A stretch of DNA of 64,000 bases from Levilactobacillus yonginensis (lineage in GTDB: Bacteria > Bacillota > Bacilli > Lactobacillales > Lactobacillaceae). The translations under genes were made by a program, and so were the position numbers. Shown here one piece after another: positions 451 through 61,976 of the stretch. Numbering within the stretch: position 1 is the first letter of the stretch; each line of letters opens with the position of its first letter. The notes below the pieces were generated by a model. It made no database searches. It had not been told where the DNA came from and saw only the letters and a list, made by a program, of their open reading frames with translations. The stretch is from NCBI RefSeq assembly GCF_003946265.1, contig NZ_RHNO01000013.1:1-64000 (forward strand). The letters run 5' to 3'.

Positions 451-453
451 GTA

Positions 454-631
454 ACCGGAGGCGGTCAGAGGTGGAGCCAGCTGTGTCGACGGTGTTAGCC
501 GGTTTCCGGCTTACAGCGTGGGACGTGTTTGGAGACTGGTGGTTTTTCCAGGCTTCAAACCGAGCCGAAGGACCGCTTTTCAGGCCGTAGGCGTTCCCCA
601 CAGTAGGCGGAATCTCTGACGGCCGCAGGTG
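454..631 (-). repeat. Structured intergenic repeat, copy 1 (type I)
   Basis: This copy has a short outer stem (464-470 pairs with 614-620) enclosing three hairpins. They are a tgttagccgg/ccggcttaca-like arm at 493-514, a second arm at about 527-560, and the conserved-loop arm near 566-590, whose reverse complement reads CCTGAAAAGCGGT. It is the most diverged copy, with a short outer stem and an internal loop in the conserved-loop arm. The orientation given is relative to the copy at 40.5 kb. Confidence 0.6.
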
Positions 632-713
632 GCTGGATGAGACTAAATTTAAGTCTGTAACACCTTATTATTCTTGGCTTGATAACTGTTTTCAAACTTT
701 AGATAGTAATCAA

Positions 714-5230: not shown

Positions 5231-5278
5231 ATTCTTGCTTGATAAATTACATATTTTATGTTTGGAGGAAGAAAGATT

Positions 5279-6733
5279 ATGCAATCAAGTTTAAAGAAAT
5301 CACTTTACTTGGGTCTCGCTGCATTAAGCTTTTCCGGCGTTGCTGCAGTTTCAACTACTGCTTCAGCTAAGTCATATGCTACTGCAGGTGCCTATACTAG
5401 TTTAGAAAAGACGGACGCTACTAAGCGTAACGTTGAATCAACTGGTACTAACGCTTTATACACTAAGCCAGGTACTGTTAAGGGTGCCAAGGTTGTTGCT
5501 TCTAAGGCTACCATGGCTAAGTTAGCTTCTTCAAAGAAGTCAGCTGACTACTTCCGTGTTTACGGTCAAAAGACCACTAACCGCGGTTCAGTTTACTACC
5601 GTGTAGTTACTATGAACGGTAAGTACCGTGGTTACATCTACGGCGGTAAGACTGCTGGTACTTTTGCTGGTGGTATCAAGTCAGCTGAAACTACTACTGA
5701 CAAGACTGCTACTGATCCTACTGTTGGTAAGACTGTTACCTTTACTACTCCTGGTAAGACTAATGTTACGTGGACTGCACCTAAGTACACTCAATACAAG
5801 GCTTCCAAGAACGTTGTAAGCACTGAACCATTTGCTGGCGACACTTTGAAGGTTACTAAGGCTGCTACTAAGACTCGTGAAGGTTCATTATACTACTACG
5901 TTGAAGATGCACAGCATCCTTCAGTTAGTGGCTGGATCTACAGCAAGGCTGTTACTACTGACACATCAGTTGCTTTCAACCAAGCTAAAGATGTTAAGGT
6001 CAACTTTGTAGCTGCTGACGGTAGTGTTATCAAGTCAACCACTTTAAAGGGCTTAACTAAGAACAATGATGCTAACAACGCCATCTCAAATCCAGCTGTT
6101 TCAGCTGATTCTAAGGGACAATCTGTTGGTTACGATGTTCAAAAGCAAGCAACTGCAGCTTGGGGTAACCCACTCTTGACTGGTACTGGTTACACGTATG
6201 ACCCAGCTGTCGCTGGTAATGCTGCTGCAATCGTTGCCGCTAAGACTGGTGACACTCTTAACTTAACTGTTACTAAGGGTGACCAAGTTGTTATGGGCTT
6301 ACAGGCTTACGTTGACAATGGTGTTGCTGCTGGTACACAGTTGACGACAACTGCTGCTGATGACACTAAGCTGCCATTACAAATCTCAGCATTCCCTAAG
6401 GTTACTGCTGCATTTGCTGGTGCCACTGGTGCTGATTATGCTGCTTCAGATGTCTACAACTTCTTAAGCACGAATGGTGCAACTAAGATGGTATCTGTTG
6501 ACTACGCTAAGGATGATAGTGGTACTGTAGTTGCTACTGATGCTGCTACTGCTGTTAAAGCAAATGGTAAGGTTGTTCTTTACCACACGGTCTACACTTT
6601 GGAACGTGGTGTGAAGGGTACTTACGCTAAGGATGGTAAGGCACAAGCATTCTACACTGCTAATGAAGTTAAAGGTACTGGTGTAACCACTGATACTGGT
6701 AGCAATGGTAACGGTTCTTCAGTTTTCGACTAA
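5279..6733 (+). CDS. slp: S-layer protein, L. brevis SlpA-like (slp1)
   Basis: 484-residue S-layer subunit that would form the outer paracrystalline lattice. The start at 5279 follows GGAGGAAGAAAGATT. A signal peptide covers residues 1-30 (cleavage after TTASA). The N-terminal ~165 residues match the L. brevis Slp cell-wall-binding region ([41 protein letters not shown]). A second conserved repeat of this kind has [13 protein letters not shown] and [12 protein letters not shown]. The C-terminal ~250 residues are the variable, self-assembling part. Codon use is extremely restricted (GCT, ACT, GGT, AAG, AAC), as expected for a very highly expressed gene. There are no cysteines. It has its own promoter and terminator, and is one of three slp paralogues in this island (also 7576 and 14904). 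Confidence 0.93.
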
Positions 6734-12631: not shown

Positions 12632-12780
12632 AAAATTCCTCCCAAAACAATTATATGTGTTACGATTCCTATTCTAGTGGCTAAATGTATAGGGGCTGTT
12701 GGAATCGTGTATTTGTTTTGTAAATGGGTTAAATGCGTTATGAGATTAGTTATTTTGATTCAGTAAAAATAATTAAAAAA

Positions 12781-12842
12781 GGCCTGTTCAAGTTCAATAA
12801 CAGACTTTGAATACATAGTTTGTTATTGGACTTGAACAAGCT
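12781..12842. other. Long imperfect hairpin upstream of the reverse transcriptase
   Basis: Arms at about 12782-12804 and 12817-12840 pair over about 24 bp with three mismatches, two of which become G-U in RNA, around a loop of about 12 nt. No T-run follows, and on both strands the flank is AT-rich. It could be a terminator for an upstream transcript, a processed ncRNA stem or a recombination end. It is unusual in size for this region and lies about 400 nt upstream of the RT start. Confidence 0.6.
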
Positions 12843-12871
12843 ATGTTTAGAGAAATAGTAAGCTTATATGG

Positions 12872-14903: not shown

Positions 14904-16274
14904 ATGCAATCAAGTTTAAAGAAATCACTTTACCTTGGTTTAGCTGCTTTGAGTTTTGGTGCCGTTGCTACGGTATCCACGACTGCTAACGCTGCTAGCA
15001 AGGCAAAGGTTACTTCTAGCAAGACCTTAAAGACGGCTGCTGACTCACGGAACGTTCAAGCTACTGGTAAGAACGCACTGTACACGAAGCCAGGGACGGT
15101 TAAGGGCGCTAAGAAGGTTGCTTCAACTACAACGATGAAGAAATTAGCTACTTCCAAGAAGTCTGCTAACTACTTCCGTGCCTACTACCAACAAGTAACG
15201 AACAAGGGGACTGTTTACTACAAAGTCGTTTCCATGGACGGTAAGTACCGTGGTTACGTTTACGGTGGTAAGAAGCAAGGTACTTTTGCTGGCGGAATCA
15301 AGTCTGCTAAGACGATGAAGGATGCTTCATTACCTTCAAACACGACGGTTTACTTCACTAAGCCTGGCAAGTCCAACGTTACGTGGGATGCTCCTAAGAA
15401 CACCCAATACAAGGCTTCTAAGCAAGTTAAGGACACCACGCCATTTGCTACGGACACTTTGACGGTTACCAAGGCAGCTACGAAGACCCGTGAAGGTTCT
15501 CTGTACTACTACGTTGAAGATGCTAAGAACCCAACTATCAATGGTTGGATCTACAGCGGCGCCGTTACTGCTACTAAGCCAGCAACTGACACTTACAACG
15601 AAAAGACTGACGTTAAGGTTAACTTTGTCTCAGCTACCGGTAAGACTGTTGCCTCAACCACTTTAAGCAACTTAAATGGTTCTGACAACAAGCTTGCAAC
15701 TGCTAAGGGTACTGACGTTAGTGCTGATGTGAATACCAAGGCTACTGATGCTTGGGGTAACGCTTTGTTATCCGGCACTGGCTACACTTACACTAAGGGC
15801 GATTCTGTAAACAAATCAGCTATCGCTTCAGCTAAGACTGGTGACACGCTTTCATTGATCGTTAACCAAAACGCCAATGCTGACACGAAGATCCAATTCT
15901 ACGGCTTGAACAGCGACCAAACTAAGGGTGCTGATCAATTGAAGGCGTACACTTCTGGTGATGCAACTGCTACGACGGTTGTTTTCCCTAAGGTTAGTGC
16001 TGCCTTCACTGGTGCCGCTGACTCTGCCTTCACTGGCAGTGACTTACAAACTTACTTGACCACTAACGGTCTGACGACGTTAAACACGCCTTCATACAAG
16101 GACGCTAATGGCAAGCAAGTATACACCAAGTACACATTCAACAATGCCGTAGCTGGTACTTACAGCACGACTAAGAACGCCCAAGCCTTCTACAAGGCTA
16201 CTGTCGTTGATGGTGCTTCACCAGTTGACACGCCAACGACTACGACTACTAATAGCGCAAGTTACTTTGCCTAA
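14904..16274 (+). CDS. slp: S-layer protein paralogue (slp3)
   Basis: 456-residue S-layer protein. Start at 14904 (AGAGGAGATCACTACAC upstream). It begins [20 protein letters not shown], as does slp1, and the first 30 nt of the two genes are identical. The wall-binding N-terminal region is conserved ([79 protein letters not shown]). The C-terminus keeps partial resemblance to slp1 (DVKVNFVSATGKTV, GTGYTY), so slp1 and slp3 are closer to each other than to slp2. Codon use indicates high expression potential. In L. brevis several slp genes are expressed differentially, so alternating or condition-dependent use is plausible but not shown here. Confidence 0.92.
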   Translation: MQSSLKKSLYLGLAALSFGAVATVSTTANAASKAKVTSSKTLKTAADSRNVQATGKNALYTKPGTVKGAKKVASTTTMKKLATSKKSANYFRAYYQQVTNKGTVYYKVVSMDGKYRGYVYGGKKQGTFAGGIKSAKTMKDASLPSNTTVYFTKPGKSNVTWDAPKNTQYKASKQVKDTTPFATDTLTVTKAATKTREGSLYYYVEDAKNPTINGWIYSGAVTATKPATDTYNEKTDVKVNFVSATGKTVASTTLSNLNGSDNKLATAKGTDVSADVNTKATDAWGNALLSGTGYTYTKGDSVNKSAIASAKTGDTLSLIVNQNANADTKIQFYGLNSDQTKGADQLKAYTSGDATATTVVFPKVSAAFTGAADSAFTGSDLQTYLTTNGLTTLNTPSYKDANGKQVYTKYTFNNAVAGTYSTTKNAQAFYKATVVDGASPVDTPTTTTTNSASYFA

Positions 16275-19837: not shown

Positions 19838-20024
19838 CCGCGATTGGCTGGGTAGGGCGCCGCCCCGTGGGGCAGACCTGGGAGCCTGAGAAGCGGTCTC
19901 CCAGGCGCCTTGGAACCTCGCTCAAACCCGCGAGTTTCCAAGGTCGGCCCGTGCTCTAAGACCGGGGAAACCGCCCGCCCTAAGACCACCTTCACTGGCC
20001 TCTGCCCTGCCCAGCCAATCGCTA
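19838..20024 (+). repeat. Structured intergenic repeat, copy 2 (type I)
   Basis: Outer stem of 18 bp: CGATTGGCTGGGTAGGGC (19841-19858) with GCCCTGCCCAGCCAATCG (20004-20021), one G-T pair. Inside are the conserved-loop hairpin (CCTGGGAG, loop CCTGAGAAGCGGT, CTCCCAGG), the TTGGAACCTCG/CGAGTTTCCAA hairpin and a third arm near 19952-19986. Confidence 0.85.
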
Positions 20025-24639: not shown

Positions 24640-25785
24640 ATGACAGTTTTGAGAGTGCCAGTAGCAAAAGCGGTTATTAGTTGGGCAGTGACTCATGGCG
24701 AGAAGTCTCAGGAAGAATTACGGCAGAAGTATCAGCTACAATCGTGGATTAACCCAGAAACTGATCGTGATTATCCCACGTTTAAGCAATTGCAAAGCTT
24801 TAGCCGCGATACGCGAATTCCATTTAATTATTTTTTTCAGACAGAAATTCCGCACGAAAAGTATGAGTTTGTAAACTTTAGAACGGTTAATAATACGACT
24901 AGCCATCCTAGCCGGCGGTTGATTGAGACAATCCAGACAATGGCGGCTCGGCAGGAGTGGATGAAGGACTATCTGATTGCGCAAGATGAGGGTCACAAAT
25001 TTAAGCTGATTGGCAGCCTTTCACGACAGTTAAGTCCAGAGGTAGCTGCTACAAAAGTCCATAAGCTATTGGAATTAGAGGATAAATTTTCTCAGCCTTC
25101 AACCGATGAGGCGTTCTTTAATCAATTACGGAAAAAAATTAGTTCACTAGGAATTATGGTCATGCAAAATGGGGTGGTTGGCACGAATACGCACCGACCA
25201 CTAGACGTTGCTGAATTCCAGGCATTTATTTTAGCTGATGAGGTAGTTCCATTAATATTTTTGAATAACACTGACAGTAGGAAGGCGAAGATATTCTCTC
25301 TAGTACACGAATTTATTCATGCGCTACTCGGTGATGATGAGATTCTTAACGTTTCCCCCGACATGGATATTAGCCATGAACGTTGGATCAATCAGGTGAC
25401 GAGTAATGTGCTGTTACCCGCCAAACGCGTTACTGCGACGTTATCCAACGATTTGTCGATTGCGGGCAATCTTAAGCAGTTGAGCCGTATTTTTCATACG
25501 AGTCTAGTGACCACGGCAATTCGGTTGAATACATTAGGATTGACAGATAGTCGTGAAATAAATTGGGCTAAGACTATCCAAGGGCAAAGTGTCGAGTCAC
25601 GAACGAAAGAATCTGGTGGTGATTTTTATAATACGGCGGTATCACGGGTTGATTGCCAGTTTGCAGATGCGGTTATTAGTGATGAAGCCTGCGGGCGTTT
25701 ACCTGTGAACCAAGCAGCTGAAATGCTAGGCGTGACCTTAAAAACTTACGCTGCCACAGTTGATAAATTATGCCAGCACGCATAG
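24640..25785 (+). CDS. Xre/ImmA-IrrE metallopeptidase, antitoxin-like
   Basis: 381-residue protein. Residues about 5-80 form an Xre-like N-terminal region (VISWAVTHGEKSQEELRQKYQ, FKQLQSFSRDTRIPFNYFFQTE). Residues 170-290 are an ImmA/IrrE peptidase domain with the zinc motif HEFIHALLGDDE (HExxH). An Arg/Lys-poor C-terminal extension (about 320-381) follows. GGGGTGAG precedes the ATG. Its end overlaps the DUF4411 gene by 16 bases, so the two are translated together. In known pairs of this type the Xre-ImmA protein controls a DUF4411 PIN toxin. Confidence 0.85.
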   Translation: MTVLRVPVAKAVISWAVTHGEKSQEELRQKYQLQSWINPETDRDYPTFKQLQSFSRDTRIPFNYFFQTEIPHEKYEFVNFRTVNNTTSHPSRRLIETIQTMAARQEWMKDYLIAQDEGHKFKLIGSLSRQLSPEVAATKVHKLLELEDKFSQPSTDEAFFNQLRKKISSLGIMVMQNGVVGTNTHRPLDVAEFQAFILADEVVPLIFLNNTDSRKAKIFSLVHEFIHALLGDDEILNVSPDMDISHERWINQVTSNVLLPAKRVTATLSNDLSIAGNLKQLSRIFHTSLVTTAIRLNTLGLTDSREINWAKTIQGQSVESRTKESGGDFYNTAVSRVDCQFADAVISDEACGRLPVNQAAEMLGVTLKTYAATVDKLCQHA

Positions 25786-30117: not shown

Positions 30118-30262
30118 CGCTCACTGCGGGCCTTGCGGGGCTGGAACGGTGTGCGCGCGTTTGGGAGCCAAAGTGCGGTCTCCCAAGCCGGCGCTGTCTA
30201 ACCGACGAAAAGCTCGTCGCTAAGACAGTTCCACGCCTGAGCCCCCGGCCCTCCGTTCGCTG
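30118..30262 (+). repeat. Structured intergenic repeat, copy 3 (type II)
   Basis: Type II copy with GGAACG...CGTTCC-like internal pairing (CTGGAACGG, CAGTTCCACGCCTGAG), a TTGGGAG/CTCCCAA hairpin with loop CCAAAGTGCGGT, and a CTGTCTTAGC...GCTAAGACAG arm carrying a variable CGACGA/TCGTCG tip. The outer stem is GC-rich but imperfect. Confidence 0.75.
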
Positions 30263-30461
30263 GATAGTGGTTGTTAAAACCATGGTTCTGGTGAATGGAG
30301 GGTAGGGACAATAAGCAATTTGTCCTGGTTTTCAGCGACAACGTTGTGAACTCGCTAGCTCACAACAAATAGTGGCCAACTAACATTCAGGCTGAGTTAC
30401 TGCCGGTTCATGGGCTTAGTTGTGGGTCGCTCACGTGGTTGTGGTGACGCACCAATCGTGA

Positions 30462-30631
30462 GCCGGAGGATGGCAGGGACCGCGCAGTGTCGATGTTCTT
30501 AGCGGTTTACCGCTTAGAACATGGGCCGACCTTGGAAACTCGCGAACTGGGCGAGGTTTCAAGGCGCCTGGGAGACCGCCCTTGGGCTCCCAGGTTTGCC
30601 CCACAGCGCGGTCCCTGCCAGCCGCAGGCGG
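30462..30631 (-). repeat. Structured intergenic repeat, copy 4 (type I)
   Basis: Outer stem TGGCAGGGACCGCGC with GCGCGGTCCCTGCCA (from 30471, to 30620). The internal arms are ATGTTCTTAGCGG/CCGCTTAGAACAT, CTTGGAAACTCGC/GCGAGGTTTCAAG and CCTGGGAG/CTCCCAGG with the conserved loop. It faces the copy at 30118-30262 in inverted orientation. Confidence 0.88.
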
Positions 30632-30695
30632 GCATCGCAGTTTCAGCCCCACCCCAACCAACAAGTGACCACCCAACAACTAAGCCCATAACCTT

Positions 30696-34606: not shown

Positions 34607-34736
34607 CGTGAATAACCCCACGATTCTTGTAGATCAGCGAGCAGGCTAACAGCAAGCAATCTCAATTCTCGAAGAATAACCAACCAAAATTGATGCTAAT
34701 TTATCTGAATGAATAGATTGCAATCAACGGCTAATC

Positions 34737-34890
34737 TTAGCCGAGAGGGCGCCAAATATGGGCTCAGGCGCCTCGTTGTTCTTAGCCGTTTACGGCTTAG
34801 AACAAGGCCAAGCTTGAAGACTCGGGTTTTTCGAGGCTTCAAGTTGTGCCGGCACCGTTCCAGCCCATATTTGGCGCCCGGTAAGGCGGA
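34737..34890 (-). repeat. Structured intergenic repeat, copy 5 (hybrid form)
   Basis: Perfect 18-bp outer stem GGGCGCCAAATATGGGCT (34747-34764) with AGCCCATATTTGGCGCCC (34862-34879). It has a perfect arm TTGTTCTTAGCCG/CGGCTTAGAACAA (34776-34805) and a GCTTGAAGACTCG/CGAGGCTTCAAGT arm. The conserved-loop hairpin is missing. Flanks match type II copies (TTAGCCGAGAGG, CCGGTAAGGCG). Confidence 0.85.
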
Positions 34891-39735: not shown

Positions 39736-40464
39736 ATGAGTGATAACAAAGAAACGCCACGGAACGCGGGCGTGCACCAAAACCGCAATACCGTTGCGTC
39801 TAACGAACGGGCAGCCTTTGACAACGTCGGGCTGACCAAGCGGAACGCCGACTACATGTTCCGGTTCAACAAGGCCTTGGAAAAGACCAAGCTGACGCCG
39901 GAAAAGAAGGCGGCCGCTGTTCAAAAGATGGTCGCAGAATTAGTCGATGGCCAAAAGAGTGGGGCAACCGCTAAGAACCTGTACGGGGATGTCGATGCGC
40001 GGGTCAAGGAAGTCGTTGAAGGGCCTGAACGTGAGGTTCAAGTCTTCGGCGGTCCTGATTACTGGCCAAACATGATTTACAACGCGCTGTCATTCTTCAT
40101 GATCTTTAACTTGATGTTCGGGGTACTCTACCTGTTTAGCCCGAACCTGGTCAAGGAAAGTAATAGCCCAATTGGGATTTCAGCCATCATTATCAGTGCG
40201 ATTGGTGCCGGGTTCATTATGCCGATCATGCCTAAGCTGTTCGATCCAAAGATCAAACATAAGTACAACGGGTGGATTCGCCTGTTGATCGTCTTAGGTG
40301 GGTTCTTGATCTGGATGGTGCTGTTCTTCTTCGCACAACTGATGCCACGGACGATCAACCCTGTTCTGGGGGGTTGGCCTAGCTTGATGCTGGCTGTGTT
40401 CTCTGGTATCGGTATGTACTGGATTCGCCGGAATTACAAGATTACTGGTGGGTTCTTCGGTTAA
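39736..40464 (+). CDS. DUF1129 family membrane protein
   Basis: 242-residue protein. The hydrophilic N-terminal ~95 residues (LTKRNADYMFRFNKAL) are followed by four membrane segments (ALSFFMIFNLMFGVLYLF, ISAIIISAIGAGFIMPIM, LLIVLGGFLIWMVLFFF, MLAVFSGIGMYWI). DUF1129 proteins follow ychF in Lactobacillaceae. Function unknown. Confidence 0.85.
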   Translation: MSDNKETPRNAGVHQNRNTVASNERAAFDNVGLTKRNADYMFRFNKALEKTKLTPEKKAAAVQKMVAELVDGQKSGATAKNLYGDVDARVKEVVEGPEREVQVFGGPDYWPNMIYNALSFFMIFNLMFGVLYLFSPNLVKESNSPIGISAIIISAIGAGFIMPIMPKLFDPKIKHKYNGWIRLLIVLGGFLIWMVLFFFAQLMPRTINPVLGGWPSLMLAVFSGIGMYWIRRNYKITGGFFG

Positions 40465-40496
40465 TTAACCGTGGCTGTGATTGTGGAGGTGTGTGG

Positions 40497-40669
40497 CCGC
40501 CTGCGGCTGCCAGGGACTGCGCTGTGGGGCGAACCTGGGAGCCAAAAAGCGGTCTCCCAGGCGCCTTGAAACCTCGCTCAGTTCGCGAGTTTCCAAGGTC
40601 GGCCCATGTTCTAAGCGGTAAACCGCTAAGAACATCGACACAGCGCAGTCCCTGGCTTCCTCCGGCTCA
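40497..40669 (+). repeat. Structured intergenic repeat, copy 6 (type I)
   Basis: Perfect 18-bp outer stem GCCAGGGACTGCGCTGTG (40509-40526) with its complement at 40639-40656. Internal arms: CCTGGGAG/CTCCCAGG, CTTGAAACCTCGC/GCGAGTTTCCAAG and ATGTTCTAAGCGG/CCGCTAAGAACAT. Flanks CCGCCTGCGGC and CCTCCGGC. Confidence 0.92.
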
Positions 40670-40775
40670 CGTCGGTGGTTAGCTAGTCCGCTTTATTGCC
40701 GAGCACCAGTCATATTTTAATCTGTAGTGGGGTCGGGACATTTTGTTCCGACCTTTTTTGTTACAGTGAATTGCA

Positions 40776-40946
40776 TGCCGCCTGCGGCTGACTGGGGCCA
40801 CGCTGTGGGACGAACCTGGGAGCCAAAGGGCGGTCTCTCAGGCGCCTTGAAACCTCACCAAGTTCGTGAGTTTCCCAGGTCGGCCCATGTTCTAAGCGAA
40901 GACCGCTAAGAACATCGACACAGCGTGGCCCCAGTCAGCCTCCGGC
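40776..40946 (+). repeat. Structured intergenic repeat, copy 7 (type I)
   Basis: Perfect 20-bp outer stem, CTGACTGGGGCCACGCTGTG (40788-40807) with its complement at 40919-40938. Interior arms nearly identical to copy 6 but the outer stem differs, with both strands changed together. Direct neighbour of copy 6. Confidence 0.92.
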
Positions 40947-41101
40947 TTTAGATTGTGGTGACCTGTTCTGTTGGTAGCCAGGCTGATGATTGACCAGTAT
41001 GGGTAGAATGAATGATTCGAGTTATCTGGGATATTACTCTAATGTCCGTGATATAGGGGAGTGTTGCGGCATGCTTTCACCAGACTAATGGGTGTCAGCA
41101 A

Positions 41102-41256
41102 TGTTAGCCGAGAGGTCGTCAAATATAGGCTCAGCCGTGGAACTGTCTTAGCGGAGTGGTCTGCTCCGGTTAGACAGCGCCGGCTTGGGAGACCGTTCTT
41201 TGGCTCCCAAACGCGCGCACAGCGTTCCAGCCTATATTTGACGGCCGGCAGGCGGC
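41102..41256 (-). repeat. Structured intergenic repeat, copy 8 (type II)
   Basis: Perfect 15-bp outer stem, CGTCAAATATAGGCT (41117-41131) with its complement at 41229-41243. TTGGGAG/CTCCCAA arm with loop ACCGTTCTTTGG. CTGTCTTAGCGGAG/CTCCGGTTAGACAG arm. Flanks TTAGCCGAGAGG and CCGGCAGGCGG. Confidence 0.88.
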
Positions 41257-41509
41257 ACACAACCGACAATCCCATCAGACTGGTAAATGCAAGCCCGGAC
41301 ACTCGCTTAGTTTTGATTGGAATGATTGTAAAAAATTTTTCAGCTGGTATTTTTCAATAAATGGGCATAGTGGTACAGGGGCACAGCTGCTTGTGAAAAG
41401 ATGGCTGGTATTGGTAGACCTACAGTTCAGAATTTCAACGCTAAATGTTGACCCGTAGCGGTTAATGGGCACACTCACGAACCGGGTGGAACCTGTGAAA
41501 AGTTGGCGC

Positions 41510-44000: not shown

Positions 44001-44190
44001 TGCCGCCTCCGGCGCCCAGAAATTTGGCCCGCTGTGGGGACCGGGGCAAGCCTGAGAAGCGGTCTTGCCCCTCGACTTGAAGCCTCGGTAACCCGCCGAG
44101 GCTCCAAGCTCGTCCCACGGACTAGGTCGGCCAAGAACGCCAACCAATTCCGTCGACACCGCGGGCCAAATTTCTGGTCACCTGCGGCTA
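44001..44190 (+). repeat. Structured intergenic repeat, copy 9 (type I)
   Basis: Perfect 17-bp outer stem CCAGAAATTTGGCCCGC (44016-44032) with its complement at 44161-44177. Conserved-loop hairpin GGGGCAAG-CCTGAGAAGCGGT-CTTGCCCC, showing paired arm changes versus copy 6. Central arm CTTGAAGCCTCGG/CCGAGGCTCCAAG. Confidence 0.9.
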
Positions 44191-44475
44191 CGGTGGCGGG
44201 TGACCACTACCTGGTTGATGCAGTCTGTGGCGTCACTGGGCTTGGCATGTGGTGTGCTGACCAGTTGACCTTTGGATTGGATTAGCTGGTTTGTGGAGTA
44301 AGTTGGCGGTGTACGACGCTTACGGCAATTGATTTGTCGATTGCTGACAGATTAATTGAAGGGTCAAAATAGCTAGCTCACTCAGTATCTAAGTTATGGT
44401 TAACAACGGAAGTTTTAGTGGTTAAGACTATGATTGAAATTTCGAACTAAACTGATGGTGATTAGAAGACGATGT

Positions 44476-44666
44476 AGCCGGAGAAAGTCAGGAGTGGTGC
44501 TGGCCGTGTCGGTGGTCTTAGCTCGGCGGAACTTGCCGAGGTTAGAGCACGGGACGAGCTTGGAGACTCAGGGTTCTGCTGAGGCTTCAAGTCGAGCTGA
44601 AGGACCGTTTCTCAGGCCGGAAGCGGTCCCCACGGCAGGCACCGCTCCTGACTTTTGTAGGCGGCA
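44476..44666 (-). repeat. Structured intergenic repeat, copy 10 (type I)
   Basis: Outer stem AAGTCAGGAG (44485-44494) with CTCCTGACTT (44645-44654), extended by GGTGCTGGCCGTG against CACGGCAGGCACC. Central arm TTGGAGACTCAG/CTGAGGCTTCAA. The conserved-loop arm keeps GCT..GG/CC..AGC. Inverted relative to copy 9. Confidence 0.82.
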
Positions 44667-44717
44667 ATCTTCTTGAATCCAGATATTTTTTAACCAATTA
44701 ATGATATGACAACTCTA

Positions 44718-44890: not shown

Positions 44891-46069
<1,179 letters not shown>

Positions 46070-46123: not shown

Positions 46124-46136
46124 TTGGGCGTTGGTT

Positions 46137-46290
46137 GGCGCCTTACCGGGCGGGCCTGTAGGTGCTGGAACGCCATGGGTACGGCTTTGAGCCGAAGAGC
46201 GGTCTCAAAGTCCGACCTTTCTCTAACCTGAGAAGTCCGCTCAGCTAAGAGAAATTTCATGGCTGAGCACCTACAGGCCCGCCCTCACGG
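46137..46290 (+). repeat. Structured intergenic repeat, copy 11 (type II)
   Basis: Perfect 19-bp outer stem GGGCGGGCCTGTAGGTGCT (46148-46166) with its complement at 46266-46284. CTTTGAG/CTCAAAG arm with loop CCGAAGAGCGGT. TTTCTCTAACCTGAG/CTCAGCTAAGAGAAA arm. Flanks GCCTTACCGG and CTCACGGCTGAC. Confidence 0.9.
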
Positions 46291-46370
46291 CTGACATTGT
46301 ACAGCCACTGAATAAGTCGACCAGTTGTTTGGGGGCTGCCGACTACTGACTAGTTGTTGGCGGTGCCTCA

Positions 46371-46529
46371 ATGTTAGCCGAGAGGGCGAGAAAAATAGGC
46401 TCAGCCGTGGCACTGCCTTAGCACGGTGTTCTTCCGTGGTTAGGCAGAACCGAGTTTCGAGACCGCTCTTTGGCTCGAAATCGTGTTCACAGCGTTCCAG
46501 CCTATTTTTCTCGCCCGGTAAGGCGCCAA
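46371..46529 (-). repeat. Structured intergenic repeat, copy 12 (type II)
   Basis: Perfect 18-bp outer stem GGGCGAGAAAAATAGGCT (46384-46401) with its complement at 46499-46516. TTTCGAG/CTCGAAA arm with loop ACCGCTCTTTGG. CTGCCTTAGCACGG/CCGTGGTTAGGCAG arm. Inverted relative to copy 11. Confidence 0.9.
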
Positions 46530-46734
46530 CAAAGCACCAACTCCAGCACAAACCCTAAGTTGGTCAGGAGCGGGCAAATAGTGTAAGATTAAGGAATGGT
46601 AAAGTGCCTTACGCCCGACTAAAGGTTCGGGTTTTCCGGCCGCACTCCGGCGTTTATTTGCTAAAATAGACAGTAAACCTACGGGGAAAGACCGCTAGTG
46701 AAGTTGCCTAGCTGTTAAAGGAGATTAGCACACG

Positions 46735-55800: not shown

Positions 55801-56034
55801 GTGGGACAGGTTATTTCGATTCAGTTTGATGCAGAACTTGATGCGTTACTGACTACGTATACAGAAAATCACGGAATGAATAAAGCGGAATACATTCAAC
55901 AAGTTGTGGGTAAAAGACTTGTGGAATGGAAGAGCGAACAGGATTTGAAGCAAGCACTGAAAGATTGGCAGGCTGACGGGTTTAAAACGAAGTCGTGGCG
56001 AGAGACACTAAGAGAGTTACATTTAGAGGATTAA
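55801..56034 (+). CDS. Orphan RHH-like antitoxin
   Basis: 77-residue small protein. Start GTG at 55801 with GGGGGGTG upstream. ISIQFDAELDALLTTYTENHGMNKAEYIQQVVGKRLVEW is a ribbon-helix-helix-like segment. The C-terminus (LKQALKDWQADGFKTKSWRETLRELHLED) resembles RelB/ParD-like tails. No toxin gene follows. The next 70 nt lead into a structured repeat, so the partner may have been lost or replaced. Confidence 0.65.
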   Translation: MGQVISIQFDAELDALLTTYTENHGMNKAEYIQQVVGKRLVEWKSEQDLKQALKDWQADGFKTKSWRETLRELHLED

Positions 56035-56103
56035 TTAAAACGAGACAATTTGAAGGTAAACATGTAGGTGATGATAAGGTTTGTAACAGTACATTGCGAT
56101 GTA

Positions 56104-56279
56104 GTTGTCGGTCGGCCGGTACAGAGTCCGGTGGCGGTAGTCTTAGGCGGGTGGGCTTTCCGGCCTTAGAGTACGGGTCAATCTTTGAAACTCGTACTTT
56201 GAGGTTCAAAGTTGCCCTGAAGACCGGGCCACAGGCTTCAGGTCTACCCCACGGGACGGCGTACCGGCCGACCGACAAC
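56104..56279 (-). repeat. Structured intergenic repeat, copy 13 (type I)
   Basis: Perfect 19-bp outer stem GTTGTCGGTCGGCCGGTAC (56104-56122) with its complement at 56261-56279. Hairpin CCTGAAG/CTTCAGG with a loop of the conserved type (ACCGGGCCACAGG), CTTTGAAACTCG/TGAGGTTCAAAG arm. Lies where a toxin gene might have been. Confidence 0.88.
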
Positions 56280-56304
56280 GGAATTGAACACAATCACAAT
56301 TCAA

Positions 56305-56358
56305 AACAAAAAGCACCGCCTCAACCAGTGATCAATCCGGTTGAAACGGTGCTTTTAA
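56305..56358 (-). terminator. cfa terminator
   Basis: On the minus strand AAAAGCACCGTTTCAACCGG...CTGGTTGAGGCGGTGCTTTTTG. Confidence 0.85.
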
Positions 56359-56399
56359 CATTCATATCGAGTGATCCGCGGTCACCCGATCTATTTGGC

Positions 56400-57596
56400 T
56401 TAGTCCGCTACCTTGGCGTGGGTTTCATCGTACATGTAATCACGCGTCATAGGTAACATCCGGGCTGAAGGGCCCTTAGAAATCAAATACTGAATCACGT
56501 CAATATTACCAGATTTGAAGGACGCAGCGCAAGCCTGTAGGTAAAGATCCCACATGCGGACGAAACGTTCGTCAAACATCTTGGTAACTTCGTCGCGGTG
56601 TTCGTTGAAGTTCTTGTCCCAAATTTCAACCGTCTTTTGGTAGTGACGGCGAAGGGGTTCCATATCATCGATCTGTAAACCGCTCTCGATGATGTGGGTG
56701 GTGTTTTCAATCAAGCCAGGAACGTAGCCACCTGGGAAGATCCATTTGTTCAACCAACCGTTGTTAGCGCCACCTTGTTGACGGGTGATTCCGTGAATCA
56801 AGGCAACCCCATCGTTCATCAGGTACTTTTGAACACAGTCGAAGTATTGGCCCAGGTTTTCTTGACCCACGTGTTCAAACATCCCAACGGAGGTGATGTA
56901 GTCCCACTTTTCGTTGCCTAATTCGCGGTAGTCTTCCAACCGGACTTCAGCAACGTCTTCGAGGCCTTCATCAGCGATGCGTTGGTTCACGTAGTCGAAT
57001 TGTTCCTGACTCAACGTGATCCCAGTAACGTGCAGACCATATTCCTTGGCAGCCGTCAACATCAGGGTTCCCCAGCCACATCCAATATCAAGCAACGTCT
57101 TGCCCGGTTGGGGGTTCAACTTCTTGATGATGTGGTGGACCTTGTTGACTTGGGCCGTGTAGAGGTCGTCGTCTGGCGTTTCAAAGTAGGCACAGGAATA
57201 AGTCATGGTGTCGTCCAACCAGAGATTGTAGAAGTTATTCCCAATATCGTAATGGTTTTGAACGTCAGCTTTGCTTTCCTTTTCGGTGTGCTTTTGCTTA
57301 GGCAGGAAGTGGATAAACTTCTTGTTATGGAAGAAACTGTCGGTGTTTTCGTAAGCCGCCGTCAGTAAGTCTTCCATACTGCCGTCAATCTCGATCTTAC
57401 CGTCCATGATGGCTTCCCCCAGCGCAATGGATGCGTTGCGAGAAATTTCCTTAATTGGAATGGCCTCATGAATTGTGATGGTGACTTCGGGAGTGCCAGT
57501 CCCATATACATCAGATGATCCGTCCCAATAGTTAACGCGAACGGGGATGTTAAAGGTGTGACTCAGAAACGTTTTGTAAAAAGTTTTTTCAAGCAT
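56400..57596 (-). CDS. cfa: Cyclopropane-fatty-acyl-phospholipid synthase
   Basis: 398-residue SAM-dependent enzyme that adds a methylene group to unsaturated membrane lipids. Start 57596 follows GGAAAGG. It has [32 protein letters not shown] (SAM loop), [27 protein letters not shown] and [16 protein letters not shown]. Internal [10 protein letters not shown] is the usual CFAS pattern. Expected role in acid and stress tolerance in lactobacilli. Confidence 0.96.
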
Positions 57597-61621: not shown

Positions 61622-61635
61622 TCTTTGCTTGGGAT

Positions 61636-61826
61636 GGCCGCCTGTGGCCGCCAGGGATGGTGACGCTGCTGTGGGGACCGGAGCAAGCCTGAGGGGCGGT
61701 CTTGCTCCTCGACTTGAAACCTCGGAAAGTCACCGAGTTTCCAAGCTCGTCCCGTGGCCTAACCTCGGCAATTCACCGAGGTAATGCCACCGTCACAGCC
61801 GGTCACCATCTCTGACGACCTCCGGC
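61636..61826 (+). repeat. Structured intergenic repeat, copy 14 (type I)
   Basis: Outer stem CAGGGATGGTGAC (61652-61664) with GTCACCATCTCTG (61802-61814), one G-T pair. Arms GAGCAAG/CTTGCTC with loop CCTGAGGGGCGGT, CTTGAAACCTCGG/CCGAGTTTCCAAG, and ACCTCGG/CCGAGGT. Confidence 0.88.
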
Positions 61827-61976
61827 TACGTTAGTGGGTTGCGGTGATACTGGCGTTACACCGACTGATGCAACTGTGGGTTGGCTGGACGAGCTGTTTA
61901 TCTGCAATCGAGTGGATAAGTGCTTGCGTAGTTGGTGCTGGTAGTATCTTAGACTCTATAAATTCAAATAAATGGA

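Follow-up and report, generated by a model that had tools for sequence, protein, structure and literature searches.

A dispersed family of cloverleaf-like intergenic repeats in Lactobacillaceae whose close opposite-strand copies face each other

Fourteen copies of a cloverleaf-like repeat are scattered through a 64-kb window of Levilactobacillus yonginensis DNA (the whole stretch analysed here; contig 5 of genome G000), and copies that lie close together on opposite strands always point towards each other. We put the probability at about one half that they belong to an undescribed family of structured, non-coding, MITE- or BIME-like repeats in which the folded DNA is what counts, and which has spread through the chromosomes of Lactobacillaceae with no mobiliser found. 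A further reading, which we offer tentatively, is that the facing pairs could be a new genome device, in which two unrelated, inward-pointing copies bracket an intergenic island and act as one folded-DNA unit in several genera of the family, and would stay functional through core exchange between loci that each retain private, self-complementary arms. We found no description of these repeats in the open-licence literature, though an earlier one may exist. By extrapolation, the repeats account for a few per cent of the chromosome of bacteria related to common fermentation species. Their strong covariation would normally be taken for functional RNA, yet the G-U signature is absent, which is a caution for covariation screens; the facing rule, private arms and exchangeable cores make the mechanism testable.

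HMMs built from the window copies, together with a covariance model, recovered a copy at all 14 positions given in an earlier note on this DNA, the training set of the covariance model including the nine long copies of the window but none of its five short ones. The single architecture proposed there, an outer stem closing two or three hairpins, likewise holds for one family of nine long copies (174-195 bp, three hairpins) and five short copies (131-158 bp, two hairpins). Fold z values, each against 60 dinucleotide shuffles, range from -3.2 to -11.4 for spans that we set ourselves, all copy boundaries being approximate. Five copies have no detected neighbour: the long copies at 451-640 (minus strand; three hairpins; z -4.3), 19838-20024 (plus; atypical left end; z -7.5), 56101-56283 (minus; z -9.5) and 61635-61829 (plus; z -5.9), the last lying 14 bp beyond the stop codon that ends an AI-2E-family transporter gene, and the short copy at 34733-34890 (minus; z -9.7). 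The others form four facing pairs, each with its left member on the plus strand and its right member on the minus strand. A short copy at 30126-30256 (z -3.2) faces a long one at 30458-30632 (z -8.7), the latter enclosed by an additional 33-nt inverted repeat (30410-30442 / 30657-30689); two long copies in tandem, at 40494-40669 (z -11.4) and 40776-40949 (z -9.1), are followed by a short copy at 41104-41258 (z -6.0) that faces the second of them; two long copies face each other at 44001-44191 (z -9.0) and 44473-44667 (z -7.1), and two short ones at 46140-46288 (z -10.8) and 46380-46524 (z -7.9). This last block is bounded by 29-nt inverted repeats (46124-46152 and 46512-46540) and, with both copies (46124-46540), looks inverted relative to genomes G028 and G032. 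All 14 copies are, in our judgement, intergenic: we regard the overlapping ORFs (at most 153 aa, for example 55995-56456) as non-genes, and the gene set used for flanking-gene counts leaves out ORFs that overlap copies and so does not bear on this judgement. Elsewhere in the window, 12774-12849 holds a 36-bp inverted repeat (4-nt loop; 81% complementary) that is apparently unrelated to the cloverleaf family, and ORF 5258-6733 contains short, imperfect repeats spaced by 27 and 54 bp (5645-5769), which we guess to be a repeat region of a surface-type protein.

All copies follow one plan, in which a variable, self-complementary outer stem leads to a CTGTGGG/CACAG collar that encloses two or three hairpins with conserved mismatches. 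Read in element orientation, the left end (GCCGCCTGCGGC in the long form, GCGCCTTACCGGGCG in the short form) is followed by a variable arm of about 12-20 bases, the collar CTGTGGG, hairpin H1 (AGCC...GGTCT), hairpin H2 (CTTGAAACC...GTTTCCAAG), a CCC that pairs with the collar GGG in single-sequence folds, hairpin H3 (TCTAAG...CTAAGA), CACAG, the complementary arm and the right end (CCTCCGGCTA or CTCTCGGCTAA). The short form has two of the hairpins, and relatives in other species, identified by eye, combine short-form ends with three hairpins. The right ends vary (GGCTAC, GGCTAA, GGCTCA, GGCTCT and others, by eye), as does the G+C content of the copies (0.42-0.69). GCCGC/CCGG-type sequences are present, as the earlier note had it, but they are the conserved ends of the element itself and not its flanks. 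The outer stems are indeed variable, but not completely different as claimed there, since arm identity among long copies averages 49% (60% in the core); the example offered, 40788 versus 56104, compared stems in opposite orientation because the 56104 copy sits on the opposite strand. Several mismatches are conserved, namely A.A in H3 (44 of 47 copies), C.T and A.C in H2 (43 and 31 of 47) and T.C and C.T in the outer ends (40 and 38 of 47), which argues for recognition rather than blind correction. In the G030 stretches L090-L098, extra nested self-complementary stems extend beyond the arms, the outermost being CGGGTTNAAAC / GTTTNAACCCG (by eye), and the full unit there may be about 340 bp long. 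We rejected the idea that long extra palindromes surround every copy, a score of at least 24 being reached by 4 of 56 and by none of the controls.

The family is large. With the DNA of one copy as query, 36 matches were found in its own genome. Along unbroken sequence we counted 14 copies in the 64-kb window, 39 over 180 kb in contig 23 of G000 and 60 over 180 kb in G030. Extrapolation gives roughly 600 copies in G000 and 1,000 in G030, totals that lean high because contig 23 and the G030 stretch were picked for having hits. We ran the covariance-model search that the earlier note had proposed, and the core model matched 34 of 35 genomes of the genus (E up to 0.01), with at least 96 matches in 17 of them, 2 in G012 and 10 in G004; G025 has none. 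Within Lactobacillaceae, matches extend to 65 of the 251 genomes, in 11 of the 40 genera (E up to 0.001), Lactiplantibacillus fabifermentans being a named example beyond the genus; at the level of the order, 12 of 295 genomes matched, every one within Lactobacillaceae (E up to 0.0001). A search with one query copy at E 1e-5, which diverged copies could escape, gave zero matches in 50,697 phage records and one partial match in 72,556 plasmid records, and E. coli, used as a negative control with one copy as query, gave no match. The plasmid match covers 45% of the query at 78.8% identity and lies at 24864-24946 of NZ_CP021461.1, a 44.6-kb Levilactobacillus brevis plasmid.

The two arms of a copy match each other better than they match the arms of other copies. 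Across 47 long copies of the own genome and 47 pairs, standard pairs fill 94.4% of cells, compared with 74.8% in shuffles and 33-41% with slid partners, and double changes occur in 41 of the 47 pairs (418 cells vs 107 in shuffles); related copies can inflate such counts. Shuffled sequences and slid partners served as controls. Of 53 long-form rows, alignment A1 keeps 47, six being excluded as partial, with some spans adjusted; alignment A2 has 46. The arms are 88% Watson-Crick within a copy, compared with 57% between copies. The conserved fold with double changes, which the earlier note had read as compensatory change under selection on folding, is thus borne out, but the RNA reading that it implied is not, since G-U does not exceed A-C. 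In a stem under selection as RNA, G-U should be tolerated but A-C should not; we counted 27 G-U and 54 A-C among 2188 stem cells. Model-fitted alignments gave G-U/A-C counts of 18/31 for G030, 14/20 for contig 23 and 0/6 for the window, of which only the G030 set is independent, the other two overlapping the main set of 2188 cells. As a yardstick, 15 distinct tRNAs carry 18 G-U in 329 stem cells (5.5%) and no A-C, the latter absence being probably an effect of how the stems are drawn. We therefore read the fold as a property of the DNA, not of an RNA of the modelled strand. No Rfam family reached its gathering score in the 64-kb window, and a search of 40400-41400 up to E 10 returned eight sub-threshold matches (best 19.9 bits vs a threshold of 50), so the element that the earlier note could not name does not turn out there to be a known Rfam family, the outcome by which that note would have been refuted.

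The earlier note overlooked a rule of orientation. Counting neighbours within 600 bp (700 bp in the window) as +-, ++, -- and -+, we obtained 4, 1, 0 and 0 in the window, 11, 0, 2 and 0 in contig 23, 8, 1, 0 and 0 in G032, 18, 0, 9 and 0 in G030, and 6, 1, 4 and 0 in G017; L009, one element split into two hits, was excluded from the pairs. Because G000 and G032, like G030 and G017, are close relatives, we rely on the 33 of 33 close opposite-strand neighbours in G000 and G030, all facing and never outward, and on other genera. There, 20 loci from six genomes of three genera, selected around strong hits, hold nine facing pairs (two of which, L199 and L201, look orthologous), one same-strand pair within 600 bp and no outward pair; two further facing pairs occur in Levilactobacillus lindianensis, a relative whose 92% identical IMPDH/GMP-reductase-family protein agrees with the assignment of G000 to that genus. 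The rule is independent of gene direction, two-copy facing regions being flanked by co-directional genes in 12 cases, by convergent genes in 3 and by divergent genes in 2. Pairing is common, not universal: no neighbour was detected within 600 bp for 15 of 39 copies in contig 23, 13 of 60 in G030, 2 of 20 in G017 and 20 of 37 in G032, and for such seemingly lone copies partners may have decayed below detection.

Facing partners are as unlike as random copies, with a core identity of 0.584 (14 pairs) compared with 0.596 across all pairs, whereas neighbours on the same strand are closely related, at 0.88, 0.93 and 0.90 in three pairs. The same comparison led us to reject the origin of the second copy from the first by inverted duplication. 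A pair moving as one unit was rejected as well, given that partners are unlike and interiors are not common to pairs: among trimmed interiors, two combinations in G030 (n = 15) share just 24-36 bp and none do in contig 23 (n = 8). Therefore units, not pairs, are copied and lost. Around the gene at 44930-46069 of the window, orthologous spacers of several species hold facing pairs of differing type combinations, and 6 of 30 orthologous loci (from 30 of the 35 genus genomes) have no copy on either side.

For the facing rule itself we favour two ends that would serve one putative trans-acting protein. The main rival, which we regard as doubtful, is that the copies are outward-pointing transcription insulators, a facing pair sealing its intergenic island in both directions. 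Since each copy of a facing pair is directed away from the gene closer to it, RNA polymerase leaving either gene would meet the same orientation; in favour are the indifference of the pairs to the direction of flanking genes, their occurrence in other genera and the start of some copies within 25 bp of a stop codon. However, on the strand that such transcripts would carry, G-U is not above A-C, the gene at 44930-46069 does without a copy on either side in the six loci mentioned, and what is by eye an ordinary terminator, a hairpin with T's after it, already stands ahead of the 46.1-kb pair.

Individual copies have changed in several ways. At 30126, G032 keeps the arms and flanks around a different core, which by eye resembles that of copy 34733, and two G030 copies are identical at 129 of 129 core bases and differ in their arms, each pair of which is self-folding. 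The left half (plus strand) of copy 56101-56283 is replaced in G032, and copy 34733, whose pairs show 10 double but no one-sided changes relative to each of G028 and G032, appears to be a whole-copy replacement. Whole units are also copied: in G030, two copies separated by 22 kb have 96% identity over 208 bp, arms included, and this identity begins at the element end. The tandem copies at 40494 and 40776, a duplication, have cores 90% identical and arms 56% identical. Local amplification is seen at G028:C11:35134-36127, where four same-strand matches, one of them partial, lie within 1 kb.

Copies also differ in presence. G032 lacks four single copies of contig 23 (15321, 49416, 51847 and 85005), and G000 lacks two copies of the G032 stretch (41699 and 70646). 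At 15321, G032 retains the fused ends GCCACCTCCGGCTAC alone and G028 carries the copy; at the other three sites, a piece of one end is left in G032. We read these four absences as probable deletions, insertion into a matching target being possible at 15321: the check for target-site duplications yielded one G032 site with fused ends, compatible with either insertion or slippage deletion. We saw no instance of a clean insertion at an unrelated site, the copy-less sites either keeping end remnants or being too messy to polarise.

Compared in place with the close species G028 and G032, copies mostly decay through one-sided changes: 1,285 pair comparisons with letters gave 42 broken pairs and 18 changes to G-U, compared with 5 double Watson-Crick changes, totals that exclude 34733 (both comparisons) and 30126 vs G032, both given apart above, in which changes on the G000 branch can count twice and in which the G028 comparison of 40776 may involve the tandem copy, not the ortholog. 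On two sister branches, 19 pairs were broken and 9 restored, a count that rests on G032 as the assumed root. Such restoration, together with the scarcity of G-U, would fit neutral quasi-palindromes, in which template switching keeps inverted repeats self-matching without any selection on folding; passages of PMC8794818 describe how hairpins can arise and persist in this way. We nevertheless think this explanation unlikely, as the 9:19 count depends on the choice of outgroup, the hairpin mismatches A.A, C.T and A.C are kept rather than corrected, and both the facing rule and the genome-wide spread are left without explanation.

The very high density, the facing pairs and conserved mismatches resembling recognition marks could also point to chromosome-organising, BIME-like sites, where paired folded sites would be bound by a putative gyrase-, polymerase- or nucleoid-type protein; 3 of the 35 species of the genus, however, have at most 10 matches and many copies are unpaired, and we consider such a role quite improbable. 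Least probable, to our mind, is an RNA element of the other strand transcribed from the island interior towards the gene, for although each A-C of the modelled strand would read as G-U on the opposite one (54 vs 27, with the same direction in G030, contig 23 and the window), the ratio is just 2:1 with a count inflated by related copies, the tRNA yardstick has 5.5% G-U and A-C never seen, and copies also occur at places where such a transcript would run antisense to a gene.

For the preferred reading, that of a dispersed family of folded DNA repeats, we propose a mechanism in three parts. Cores would be exchanged between loci by gene conversion running through the alike core and halting at the unlike arms, from which common cores and private arms would be expected. 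For the arms to stay complementary, either foldable copies must be selected or template switching must repair them, and complementarity could be maintained if only foldable copies are propagated, aided by template switching in hairpins during replication. Two inward-pointing copies may then form the working substrate of a putative trans-acting protein, like the two ends of a transposon, so that unrelated copies could be partners. No transposase or recombinase was found to accompany the copies. An autonomous element with a gene between two copies was rejected, as the one such gene checked encodes a pseudouridine synthase, as was accumulation through a missing palindrome nuclease, SbcD being present in 35 of 35 genus genomes. 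A plain parasite would require neither the spread through 34 of 35 species nor the facing rule.

Correia and RUP are bacterial MITE families, and like bacterial MITEs the copies described here are short, non-coding and intergenic, with folding ends. Unlike in MITEs, the inverted arm is mostly locus-specific and only short outer ends are conserved; the shared terminal inverted repeats by which MITEs are recognised were not found among arms that are 88% Watson-Crick within a copy and 57% between copies. MITEs are typically AT-rich according to passages of PMC10969869, unlike these copies with their G+C of 0.42-0.69. Neither a parent insertion sequence, looked for at one gene between two copies, nor a proven target duplication came to light. 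REP and BIME sequences, as portrayed in parts of PMC2817692, are extragenic palindromic repeats that often exceed 100 copies per genome, many of them as oppositely oriented doublets, and the inter-repeat sequences of separate clusters lack homology. The present repeats are likewise extragenic and in oppositely oriented doublets, though in the facing arrangement only, and some of their right ends read GTAGCC on the other strand, as in REPs. They differ in unit length (about 130-195 bp in the window, compared with about 20-36 nt for REPs in the same parts of PMC2817692), in that outward close neighbours are not seen, whereas BIME clusters alternate, and in having no constant GTAG foot, the tetranucleotide foot of REPs not being found by eye. 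A RAYT/REPIN system was rejected, because the presence of the Y1 transposase PF01797 does not follow copy number: it has no match in the copy-rich genomes G030, G002, G003 and G021 and occurs in 23 of the 35 genomes, mostly drafts. Pneumococcal BOX elements offer another parallel, being described in sections of PMC3049150 as modular, structured and mostly intergenic with a variable number of modules, all of which applies here; by that description, the collar with two or three hairpins sets the present repeats apart, and those sections mention no rule of facing pairs. Finally, the arms co-vary without intermediates, as do those of the template-switching palindromes in the portions of PMC8794818 that treat them, but the palindrome here is part of a dispersed family with a conserved core and conserved mismatches.
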